Of a stretch of DNA of 64,000 nt, positions 59,340 through 64,000 are shown one piece after another. A program made the position numbers and the translations under genes. The stretch covers positions 310,001 through 374,000 of the forward strand of contig MCGT01000016.1 in NCBI GenBank assembly GCA_002104935.1, written 5' to 3'. Under the pieces are notes generated by a model. It searched no databases, was not told where the DNA came from, and worked only from the letters and a program-made list of their open reading frames with translations. Source of the DNA: Hesseltinella vesiculosa. Taxonomy: Eukaryota > Mucoromycota > Mucoromycetes > Mucorales > Cunninghamellaceae. Within the stretch, counting starts at the first letter, position 1. Each line of letters starts with the position of its first letter.

Positions 59340-59915
59340 TCAAAGAAAAACTGCCAGTGGTATCTCCAGAGTACCCACAAAATTGTGGCTTTGACATTTA
59401 ATACTCTGTTGGAGTGTCTTGCTGGTTGCATGATCCAGGTTCGGATGACTGCACCAGCTGGGGGGACGGCCTAACTCCTCTCTTTGCCATACATAGCGCC
59501 ACAGGGTCAACTTCTTTGGGCAGGTCCATAGGTGCAGTGTGTCATCCTTTTCTGTATTACACACCTTGCAGAGTCGCTTTTTATCCTCTGGGTCCATCCA
59601 CCCTTGGCGGATTCGGGTTGGGAGGCAGTCCTGCAATGTTCTCCACCATAGTTGCATTCTAGGGCCTAGGTCTATGTCCTTCCATATGCGTAGCCAGTCT
59701 TTCCGTCCTACCAGGGAGTGCACCTTGGTATCCGGGTGACAGATTTTTTCTTCCAGTAAGCGTCGAACCATTTTGGGTTTTAAAGACGATATGGGTGTCC
59801 ACTTCTTATTTATCCATAGGGCAATCTCCCTATTGGGCTTGGTGCTCCATCCTGGGGCTTGTCTTAATGGTTGTAGCAAGAGGTTCAAGGTAGGGTGAGT
59901 TCGTTTGAGCGACAT
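59340..59915 (-). mobile_element. LINE-type retrotransposon 3' fragment (zf-RVT domain)
   Basis: A 191-aa open stretch holds GRKDWLRIWKDIDLGPRMQL, LWWRTLQDCLPTRI and CKVCNTEKDDTLHLWTCPKK: the zinc-binding domain (CxxC...HxxxxC) found C-terminal to reverse transcriptase in non-LTR elements. The polymerase domain is absent upstream, as expected for a 5'-truncated copy. The rest (TLEIPLAVFL and stop) is at the 3' end. It lies about 0.5 kb beyond the end of the Fanzor gene. Confidence 0.8.
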
Positions 59916-60108
59916 ATTACACTTTATCCAAAAATGAATGTCGGAATACCAAAATAACGAAGTCGTGAAATAACAAAATCAAAAAAAAGTCGCATTGTCG
60001 TGCATCAATTGTGGTGATGAGCACCAAGAGAGAAAAAAAACCGAAGAGTGGAGCTATAATATTTAAGGCATAAGTGTCAGTCTGAAGCAACTAAACCTTA
60101 TACTTGAG

Positions 60109-60330
60109 ATGGATGTGGTACTCACGAAGGCGAAAGGGAGCATACAGTATCAACCAAAAGAAACACCGCTAAGAATAAATAAAAATCGAACGGTGAGTGA
60201 CGAAAGTGATGCTTGGCTATTCCACGAGAGTGAAGCTTACAATACAAGAGGGAAAGGCAGAGCCGTGTACAAAGGGAAGGAAATGTTAGTTCATACTCTT
60301 CGATATGGTTTGAAAATTTACCCTAAATAA
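60109..60330 (+). CDS. Small ORF next to the Fanzor gene, 73 aa
   Basis: ATG at 60109 to TAA at 60330, with a TATAATATTTAA block about 50 bp upstream. The product is hydrophilic and not low-complexity: MDVVLTKAKGSIQYQPKETP, SDESDAWLFHESEAYNT, GKGRAVYKGKEMLVHT. No family recognised. It reads toward the Fanzor stop codon and ends 110 bp from it, so it may belong to the same mobile element, be an independent small gene, or be a relic. Confidence 0.4.
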   Translation: MDVVLTKAKGSIQYQPKETPLRINKNRTVSDESDAWLFHESEAYNTRGKGRAVYKGKEMLVHTLRYGLKIYPK

Positions 60331-60440
60331 AAAGGTAAGGAATCTGCCTTGTCTATTCTCATCTTTCTTACCAAGGACAGACAAAGACGCCTTTGTCGTC
60401 TACATTTGAAAGGTGTAAAATTGAAATCTTCGGGATTTCA

Positions 60441-63400
60441 TCAATGGTTCATTGACTTGGTGAAAACTTCGGGACGAGGTTGCTTCTCTTGTTCCAAATA
60501 TCCCAGGTGCAGAATGTTTTTGGCTGCCGACTTGTCCCGGTTCCAATGGCGTTGGCAAATGTAGCATGTCTTTACAGACCAGAGGGAAACCACGGAATCG
60601 GTCAAAGGGTCAAGAACTCGCGCAAGCGACAGAGATTGCGTGTGGCAGGCACAGCATACCTAAAACCAAGACACTTGTTATGAGCAGCTATTCTTCCCGC
60701 CACCCCAGTTCAGTCTTACTTGACTTGTAAAGCTTTCATTGACCACGCAGACAAGCAGCCGTCCTTCCAACTCGGCTTGCTTGAGTTTTGGCATAATTGA
60801 CATGCGCGTTTTTTTCCCCTTCAGTGTGAAGCCGAACACACCAGAGCCCATCATGACCAGGGGTATTCTTGAAAAGGGTATTTTTTTACTGAATAAAAAA
60901 ATAAAGATTGACGTCAATCTCCGTTATCCCCCCCCTCTCTCTTTTTTACCATTCATACTTACAGTACGTCATGTTCTTTATATTTTTTGCCACCAAACGC
61001 AAAGATGTTCACCATCTCATCCAGGACTTTTTGCTTAGAGACATAGGCCAAAAAGCGCGCATTGGTAAAGGATGAGCCATAAAATTGGTAAAGCACAGGC
61101 AGGGTCTCGCACAGCGACTGGCAATACGATGTCCATCTGGTCGATGACACCGTTTTTTTCGTTGGCAGGCTGTTGAGTGCAATGTTCATCCCAGACTCGG
61201 TGGTTGACAGCTGGCGGTGGTATCGACGTTTTTTATACCCGGATTTGGCGTAAAATTCGTTGTTTGTGAATCGAAGACAATTTTTTTCGGAATCCACTGC
61301 TGTGAAGGGCACCGTGTGCCCTGGGTCAACACCATAGGACCAAAATTCCACCATGTCGTTGTCATCCAAGTCACTCATGACGAGATCAGGCAGGCGTTCT
61401 CGGCTTTTCCGTTCGCACAGGAATTCCAGGGTATGGCCATCGGTTCGTACAAGGTTCCTGAATGCTATTTTGTTCCCTTCAGGGGGCACATCCACATCAT
61501 ACGACCCCAGAGATTCTCGGCTAGGGAAACAAAAAGATTACCACGATGCCCGCTTTTTTTTTTTCTATTCACCTGCCCAAGCTTACCACTGCTCCAGTCG
61601 GACCTTTTTGAAATCCAACGAACTCCAAAATACCAGGAACTTCTTCTTGATCTTTTGATAGTCAGAAAGAACCGGCTGTCTGGGTCGTCCTCGTCTGGAT
61701 GGTTCGTCGTTAGGGCCGTCCATTGCCACAGGATTGCCGACGAACAAATAATCTTCGTATCGAGGTTGTGCACCTGCTTGGTCGAAAATCCGGGCCAGAC
61801 ACTGGGCATCCAGAGTCACAAACTTGCGCGTGAATCGAAGAGCAGGCAGCAGGGTATACATTTTTGTGACATGCATTGTTGAAGCTGTTGTCGTTCTGAA
61901 GCATACTGACGTGTCGATCATATACCGTCCATTCAGGAATTGGCGTGACAACGAGAGTTGTTCACGGGTTCTTGTTACCAATGTTGTCATTCCACTGCGA
62001 AGATAATCGCCAAGCTTTGGGCCAAATCTGACAGGCATCGTCGGATGGTTGACCATTTTGAAAAACGCACGGACAAGGCGGTTTTGCTGCCGGCGGCCCA
62101 GATCATTGAATTGGTCCAAACGCGTAAGCAGCTCCCAGCAGCTCTTGTTGTCAGTATAGTCGACGATTGTTTCTTCGCTCACTACACCAGTGGCTGCATT
62201 ATTGTAGGCTTCCATTTCAGTTATTTTTATTTTTTGGAGGAGGAAGAGATGAGTCCTATTTCCTTTGACACAATTGAGCCTCTTTTTACGCCCTTACCAA
62301 GGAATACATACACGACGGGCAAGTATAAGTTAAACTTGGCTGTTAGATTTTCCAAATTCACAGGCGTCGGCCCTAGGGTCACATTGGAAATCACTGACGC
62401 CACAGCATCTTGCCAGGAAGCATGTGCATACGTAGGAGTTGCTGGTTCGCTGTCAGTCCCGCAGAGAGTGTCGTAGGCAAATGACACCAATTTCTTCAAT
62501 GATTTTTTAGTTGGCTTTTCCTGTTAAGAGGCAAAGATGGAGAGTTGTTTAGTTCCTGTCTTCTTTTCCCTCGCAACTTACATTGGCTGGAATCAAAGAT
62601 CGGAGTTTGAACGCCAAGAAGGTTCGGCAGCGAGGTTCAAATGATTCAGCCAGGCCATTCTTGACCGCTGTGGCTAGGGTCTTGGCCATATGAGCGTATG
62701 TTTGGGAATAGCCAGGTAACGGTTGAACTGTTGGGAGATCCGCGGTTTCGAATGATTGGACATATGCGTGAAAAATGGATTCTGTGTCTTGGGGGAGGTT
62801 CGGATTTTGATTCGTGATGTGACCACCAAGCAGCAACTGCATAACGCCATAAATGTAATCTTGCGAGCCAAAATGGAGAGGGATTGGCTCAGAACCTTCC
62901 AACAGTGTCAGAGCATGATGTTGGGTAAAAAGCATGGCTTTGATCGACAGATCCCGCACATGGTCGACAACGACGTTCACTTCTTGCATCACATTTGCTT
63001 TGGCACGCATTCGCTGCCGTCTGGAATGGCCATAGCATCGCAGGGCATGCTTCAGAGAACAGCGACGGACAAAAGGGGTGTGGTTTGGACCAATGATGTT
63101 GCCCAGAACATCGTCCACATTGGTTTTATGGGCATGGCAGAGGTGGCTGGCAGCATTTCCGTGGTGCTCGCACGCATCATTGCTTCCGTCCGGGAGAATG
63201 CAGTGTGAGCATCGGGGAACGTTGGGATTGGCCCGGGCGGCGTCCAATTGCCGTTGGCCTGCTCTTCTCCCTTGTCTGTTCTGCTGTCTCACAACTGCTT
63301 GGGTTGGTGCCCCATAATGTCCTAGCAGCAAAAAAAAAAAAAACCAGTCAGATATTTCGTTTGACCAATGCTTGTCATGTCAACTTACTGTTGAATGGGC

Positions 63401-63607
63401 AGAGCCGGGAACGACCATCCACATGATCTGTCCTTCCGCATCTGGCACAGGGTGTTCTGCCTGAATGTATTGAAACAAAGCATTCTGTTAGCTGTCCTTG
63501 TTCTGGAGCAAGATCTCACCTTGTCGCTCTTGTTCTTCCTCTCTTTCAATTTTGCGCCGTTTTAGACCCTCCAAATAGGCTCTTTGTTGTAGAATGGTTT
63601 GGGACAT
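60441..63607 (-). CDS. Fanzor (eukaryotic TnpB-like, RuvC nuclease), 8 exons, apparently complete
   Basis: Predicted RNA-guided DNA endonuclease of the TnpB/Cas12 lineage. Exons: 63607-63520, 63460-63389, 63321-62582, 62520-62298, 62193-61587, 61520-60963, 60888-60720, 60659-60441; all phases close, giving 891 aa without a stop. The N-terminus has a zinc knuckle (CARCGRTDHVDGRSRLCP) and a second Cys/His cluster (PRCSHC...CEHH...HLCHAH). RuvC-I is YGVDPGHTVPFTAV (Asp). The C-terminal RuvC/TNB block reads PLVMMGSGVFGFTLKG, then LLVCVVNESFTSQVCCAC, TCYICQRHWNRDKSAAKNI: zinc ribbon of two CxxC pairs and the RuvC-III Asp in NRD. The Glu in VVNE sits where Fanzors carry their displaced catalytic Glu. 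The exon-5 acceptor has an equally in-frame alternative 12 bases upstream. Confidence 0.9.
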
Positions 63608-63673
63608 TGCATAACTACAAGAATAAGGTGAACAAAGTCGAAAGGTAAATGCGTGAAGGAGAAAAAAAAAAGT

Positions 63674-63727
<54 letters not shown>
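63674..63727. repeat. (GA)n microsatellite
   Basis: About 26 GA units, about 65 bp upstream of the Fanzor start codon on its 5' side; on the Fanzor strand it is (TC)n, a pyrimidine tract in the presumed promoter. Confidence 0.95.
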
Positions 63728-63734
<7 letters not shown>

Positions 63735-64000
63735 GAAAACAAACAAAAAAATAAGGCGGAGATGAAAATGGGACGCGCGACTGCAGCTCTGATTGCTCAC
63801 TCAAAAACGTATCTTCTCTCTTTTAGGGCTCTTCGTTTAACCTCATTGATAAACGAAAGTGATTGAGACATTTATTTTACAAGAGATCGGCTGAAGGAAA
63901 GCAAGAACTAAAAATAAGAAAGAGGGAGTGGGTAAACGAGCCTGAAATAATCAAGTAATAAAAACCCTGGGCTTTTCAGGCTTCCATCTTCTTCCTTGGC
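63728..64000. other. Window edge, no gene seen
   Basis: Upstream of the Fanzor gene. No inverted copy of the 59.9-60.4 kb flank was noticed by eye, so the 5' end of any Fanzor-bearing element is not defined. Confidence 0.4.

Follow-up and report, generated by a model that had tools for sequence, protein, structure and literature searches.

SPu-1 of Spizellomyces punctatus, the element that encodes SpuFz1, is described as carrying a Fanzor1 as its sole gene between terminal inverted repeats, with putative TA duplications and many similar copies (PMC3627910, PMC10432273), and the element reported here from Hesseltinella vesiculosa shares all of these features, its gene being a probable Fanzor1. 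SPu-1 also has gene-less ghosts of ~550 nt, for which the counterpart here measures 575 bp, and no transposase with matching ends is reported from the SpuFz1 host (PMC10432273). SPu-1, as described there, and our element are alike in that no transposase has been found between the same repeats. PUl-4 and other Fanzor1-only elements have Mariner-type inverted repeats and TA duplications, as here, in a different host (PMC3627910), and a Fanzor1 from the same order (Mucorales), PpFz1 of Parasitella parasitica, is reported to have a RuvC insertion domain (PMC11423790).

The window, that is, the whole stretch of DNA analyzed, comprises 64,000 nucleotides of H. vesiculosa contig MCGT01000016.1 (C8; positions 310,001 to 374,000). 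At its far end lies a discrete, young, non-autonomous mariner-type element with a Fanzor as its only gene. The element is ~4.27 kb long, is read on the minus strand, and runs in window terms from 59920 to 64186, reaching the window's last base at 64000 and 186 bases beyond (C8:369920-374186). An earlier, sequence-only reading of this DNA had set the limits at 60441-63607, which take in only the coding part. We consider it likely that this Fanzor1-like nuclease is the sole gene of a young non-autonomous Tc1/mariner-type transposon that is moved in trans by a resident DDE_3 transposase and retained by RNA-guided cutting.

The element is bounded by 24-bp imperfect inverted repeats, the right one at 59920-59943 (-) and the left one outside the window, which match ungapped at 17 of 24 positions, a level equalled by 2 of 20,000 random pairs. 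Next to the right end (59918-59919 in the window), all 12 loci examined, which represent 11 sites, have a TA; next to the left end, 9 of 11 have one, for which the chance is ~2e-11 given the window's TA frequency. The left-junction exceptions are the window copy, which reads AA (64187-64188, outside the window), and L014, which reads TT. Empty alleles were not observed. At the left end, the first three bases differ among copies, which prompted consideration of IS200/IS607-like movement without target duplication; this was dropped, as TA is found on both sides.

A search of the genome (27.05 Mb) returned 34 matching places, 17 of them at 97-100% identity, which supplies the copy count that the sequence-only reading had proposed as a check. 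When aligned with their flanks, the copies have common sharp ends as far as each extends, and the flanks are unlike. With left and right halves at contig ends paired, the insertions number ~11 and at most 16. Six copies are complete, with the same two ends and differing flanks, and are 0.50-1.01% apart. Introns are present wherever copies cover them, so movement occurred at the DNA level and retrocopies are ruled out. A telomeric location was also considered, 12 of the 17 near-identical places lying no more than 800 bases from a contig end; orientation and cut points vary, which makes assembly breaks the simpler reason.

Common ends, TA duplications, ~11 insertions, and little divergence among complete copies bear out one of two earlier suggestions, that of a recent active element. 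The other was a gene kept by the host, in which case the protein would serve a cell function and the element copies would be debris. Such retention would agree with four intact loci having seven introns and with a ratio of amino-acid-changing to silent changes below 1 among shared changes, but it sits poorly with ~11 nearly identical insertions that have the same ends in differing flanks, and with six complete copies that are about equidistant. Because the gene sits in a multi-copy transposon, host domestication is not needed and is ruled out as the main reading, and we regard it as very improbable.

Shorter derivatives and neighboring features were also noted. A gene-less ghost of 575 bp (C1:188050-188624) retains 86 bases of the element's left end and roughly its final 330; the ghost has TT at its left junction and TA at its right. 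A fragment at C50:93785-93995 (L053) consists only of the first 211 bases of the element and is >99% identical. Within the 5' non-coding part lies a (GA)n simple repeat (63674-63734). An open frame on the minus strand (59340-59978), which we take to resemble the zinc-binding end of a reverse transcriptase, borders the right end of the element and extends into it.

The Fanzor gene is read on the minus strand from 63607 to 60441 as eight exons that join in phase and are stop-free, as had been proposed. Its structure was compared with those of P0001 (DM01DRAFT_1370827), a public H. vesiculosa gene model from another copy of the window Fanzor family, and P0002, a sister protein from the same fungus. 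Exon 1 (63520-63607) is followed by an intron whose position is common to P0001 and P0002, and exons 2 (63389-63460), 3 (62582-63321), and 4 (62298-62520) were joined in phase and compared with both models. Exon 2 contains a CxxCGxxxH..SxxCPxN pattern, presumably zinc-knuckle-like. Exon 5 is 61587-62208 as the earlier frame joins it; at other loci it starts 12 bases earlier, at an acceptor absent from the window copy. Exon 6 (60963-61520) carries the first RuvC aspartate (GVDPGH), placed by the join and by motif comparison with P0002. Exon 7 (60720-60888) carries GSGVFG and the glutamate of VVNESFTSQ and has 60888 or 60867 as its first base, P0001 taking the acceptor at 60888. Exon 8 (60441-60659) holds the zinc ribbon, NRD, and the stop, as placed by the join and the TNB profile match. 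The choice of exon-7 acceptor sets the length of the product at 889 or 896 aa, in place of the 891 first given, and VDPG, GSGVFG, VVNESFTSQVC, CYIC, and NRDKSAAKN are all found in the translation.

Comparison with P0001 and P0002 supports the intron-rich structure. Placed on locus L016, P0001 has introns 1-4, 6, and 7 in common with the window set, and its five extra introns or altered sites relative to that set are a different site for intron 5 and four additional introns. P0002, aligned to its own locus (L054), shows breaks at seven of seven homologous intron places and one annotated break without a counterpart. The positions of the seven introns are backed by these comparisons; the intron-4 acceptor AG, however, is gone from the window copy. 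In the P0001 model itself, part of the RuvC region is missing, and of the 11 introns several seem to have been imposed by a break in the reading frame of that copy.

The AG of the intron-4 acceptor is kept in 14 of 15 covering loci, and the window copy is the sole loss, so that "complete", the earlier description of this Fanzor, is not supported for this copy. The acceptor that lets the window frame join lies 12 bases further in, in phase and without a pyrimidine tract. Its use removes four codons, three of whose residues (EME) are also present in P0002. The window copy is probably impaired, and probably splices badly, through loss of one splice acceptor. Apart from this site, splice sites are all GT or AG wherever they are covered. 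Nine loci span the coding region, and five are open to the stop: the window copy, L011, L013, L014, and L015, the last four having open frames and all splice sites. The frame is broken in the other four (L010, L012, L016, and L017), and a premature stop at codon 76 is common to two loci. L015 and L016, which are contig ends of C45 and C23 with a ~4.3 kb overlap over the same right junction, have the same right flank and look like a single site at two contig ends. Across 4301 aligned positions, 14 substitutions and 31 gap positions separate the two, either as unmerged alleles or as poor contig ends, and this mismatch at one apparent site means that some broken frames may be assembly errors.

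Substitutions were sorted across 16 loci, with L015 set aside, giving 73 coding changes against an expected silent share of 0.296. Changes present in at least two loci are silent in 20 cases and not in 18 (ratio ~0.38, P 0.0025), singleton changes are silent in 13 and not in 22 (ratio ~0.71, P 0.21), and shared and singleton changes taken together give a ratio of ~0.51 (P 0.0034). Variable sites number 73 of 2682 in coding sequence, 17 of 498 in introns, 37 of 580 before the gene, and 19 of 523 after it. The pattern fits a protein that was under selection during spread and whose copies, once inserted, drift or gather sequencing errors. These counts bear on whether the Fanzor is now a dead passenger, that is, whether the element multiplied recently with a protein that no longer cuts DNA, its spread needing only the ends and a foreign transposase. 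The missing acceptor in the window copy, the broken frames in four of nine full-length loci, the premature stop common to two loci, and an unconvincing omega-RNA fold (below) would agree with such a passenger. Working against it are the RuvC/TNB D, E, and D residues kept in both the window family and P0002, the four intact loci, and the bias of shared changes to silent ones, and we judge it quite unlikely.

Assignment of the protein to the TnpB/Fanzor superfamily is made with good confidence from profile and motif matches. The C-terminus matches Pfam Cas12f1-like_TNB (PF07282) at 29.5 bits (cut-off 26.3), in agreement with the earlier placement in the Fanzor family and by the profile check suggested there, and P0002 scores 30.3 bits against the same cut-off. 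The RuvC D, E, and D, as the motifs VDPG, VVNE, and NRD, are invariant between the window family and P0002, and a third family in the genome (family C, below) echoes them as VDPG, TNEY, and DRD. Only the last part of the bacterial guided_TnpB model matches (P0001 27.6 bits and P0002 26.9 bits, cut-off 100). SpuFz1 was the only Fanzor returned by sequence searches of the PDB, and its match is weak (E 0.26; profile E 0.36, where an unrelated protein scores 0.24), the alignment being confined to two regions, that of the first aspartate and the end with NRD...RPEVF. A family-C piece searched against the PDB returned no Fanzor. The structure predicted for P0002 from a two-row alignment has a mean pLDDT of 35.5. 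Among the candidates scored in the protein collection (at least 7995, at least 7993, and 2654), the only relatives found were P0001 and P0002 from the same fungus, and two peptide patterns run against viral contigs gave 27 pattern matches, none confirmed. The literature searched returned no paper on both Fanzor and Hesseltinella. Within the superfamily, the protein is assigned to Fanzor1 with moderate confidence, the one pointer to this clade from sequence being the weak SpuFz1 match with its C-terminal RPEVF.

A candidate omega-RNA core lies 3' of the gene, in a non-coding stretch of 145 bases (59978-60122, -) that is kept in diverged and gene-less copies. Five diverged copies, among them the C1 ghost, are 81-92% identical to it. 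These copies came from a search that used the same 3' region as query, and the coding sequence remaining in two of them is identical at 59 of 73 and 84 of 98 positions. The last 60 bases before the right end are less conserved in the diverged copies (48-79%), and it is the corresponding region that forms the RNA scaffold of SpuFz1. Single-strand folding of three right-end stretches gave results no better than shuffles (z ~+1.3), alignment folding gave a weak signal (z -1.46, with 14 of 200 shuffles as good), and Rfam returned no match up to E 0.5 over 59400-64000. The omega-RNA is thus a prediction here, as is the guide, which would be the first 15 bases past the right TA (59903-59917, -), modeled on the 14-15 nt guide beyond the right end that is described for SpuFz1 (PMC10432273). 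Because the predicted structure is uninformative and the omega-RNA folding unconvincing, we infer RNA-guided cutting by the window family from its family membership.

No transposase was recognized inside the element. DDE_3 matches in the genome number 164, and none of the places listed from them lies inside an element copy when compared by eye. The terminal-repeat motif TACASTNNNTCCANNAANNNNNGTCG, with one mismatch allowed, occurs at 123 genome places versus 1 for a reversed control, and one DDE_3 transposon (L034) has, between copies of this repeat at C4:430392 and C4:432125, a 434-aa frame that matches DDE_3 at E 9.4e-27. When the genome was scanned with the two ends of the element itself, allowing as many as 3 mismatches, 35 and 15 places were recovered; outside the window Fanzor family, no listed DDE_3 match was seen by eye near these places, bar known mariner repeats. 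A resident DDE_3 transposon with related inverted repeats is a plausible source of transposase in trans, and since such transposases have related and not identical ends of their own, we infer, and do not observe, mobilization in trans. A further DDE_3 match (C8:374731-374985, in L009) lies ~545 bases past the left end of the window element, outside it.

In the mechanism we propose, a resident Tc1/mariner (DDE_3) transposase would recognize the related repeats and cut and paste the element in trans. The Fanzor protein would bind an RNA that is transcribed from the right end and extends into the flank. It would cut next to a motif with TA as its last bases, at the emptied donor site or at the sister site, and repair of the cut would copy the element back. 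The Fanzor might instead act directly in transposition, by target choice or end cleavage, and so help to move mariner-like ends and not just retain them. It is the only recognized gene in the element, comparison by eye with the listed DDE_3 places turned up no transposase bounded by exactly these ends, and silent changes are in excess among shared substitutions, all of which could be read in this way. The TA duplications and the likeness of the repeats to those of the DDE_3 element, however, point to a mariner transposase, the 575-bp ghost exists without the gene, and RuvC nucleases of the Fanzor kind are not known to transpose DNA, which together make a direct role unlikely.

At four of 11 left junctions (L016, L017, L021, and L025), the bases preceding the element are a mariner-type repeat end with its TA, in four different versions. 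Among 11 insertions, ~0.0005 to 0.0024 would be expected next to a terminal inverted repeat, based on ~1.1 million TA sites (estimated from the window frequency) and an assumed 50 to 250 repeat-adjacent sites. The mariner is on the left side in all four abutting cases, which at n=4 is not significant. Either insertion is steered to mariner ends or mariners insert beside Fanzor elements. Mariner copies L031, L034, L041, L044, and L045 lie end to end with a single TA shared, forming arrays. A more speculative extension, which we hold to be improbable, is a single transposition guild made up of Fanzor elements and resident mariners. Integration would then be steered to mariner-terminal TAs, only with the mariner on the element's left, which would keep the right-flank guide unmatched to mariner repeats; copies in the opposite orientation would arm the Fanzor against all mariners and be lost. 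If so, guide content would act as a selective filter on transposon insertion.

Other Fanzor-type genes are present in the genome. Family B, represented by P0002 (DM01DRAFT_1408636), has a protein 54% identical to that of the window family (family A), occurs in several copies, and has a related right inverted repeat. Its introns lie at the seven homologous positions but differ in sequence and length. In the two family B copies that were read, the left end looks unlike that of the window family and does not show the same inverted repeat, as if the element were one-ended or differently bounded. Family B loci include L054 and L055, with more copies on C12, C15, C41, and C2. L056 (C5:121285-124356) is a third Fanzor-like gene (family C), 27-47% identical, that has NEY, CPMC, CQHC, and DRD motifs, its VDPG being preceded by a long acidic stretch. 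With E values of 0.001 or less, the genome yields a further 46 TNB matches (for example C78:707246-707443 and C5:596849-597052), and 42 of these exceed the cut-off. By coordinates none falls within family A or B, in which intron 7 interrupts the domain. When the 46 were compared with 70 typed repeat places, five had a repeat in the right orientation at 416-423 bases downstream, against none in the wrong orientation, so that ends of this class seem to be common to several Fanzor genes here. High numbers of TNB loci are not unheard of, since 42 Fanzor loci are reported in S. punctatus (PMC10432273).

One genome holds near-identical copies with several intact frames, DDE_3 transposons with related ends, a ghost, and many other TNB loci, a setting of gene and transposon in a single fungus that makes both mobilization in trans and retention by RNA-guided cutting directly testable. 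As described in the sources cited above, SPu-1 is ~2.1 kb with one single-frame gene of 633 aa, whereas the element here is 4.27 kb with seven introns and about 890-900 aa. SPu-1 copies are ~92% identical to their consensus, whereas the six complete copies here are ~99% identical. Unlike what is described for SPu-1, the repeats here resemble those of resident DDE_3 transposons, and the repeats of PUl-4 are reported to be identical to those of a confirmed Mariner family (PMC3627910), whereas only related repeats were found here. As a system, on the published descriptions of those elements, the window element agrees with SPu-1 and with the Mariner elements of PMC3627910 that carry Fanzor1 only.
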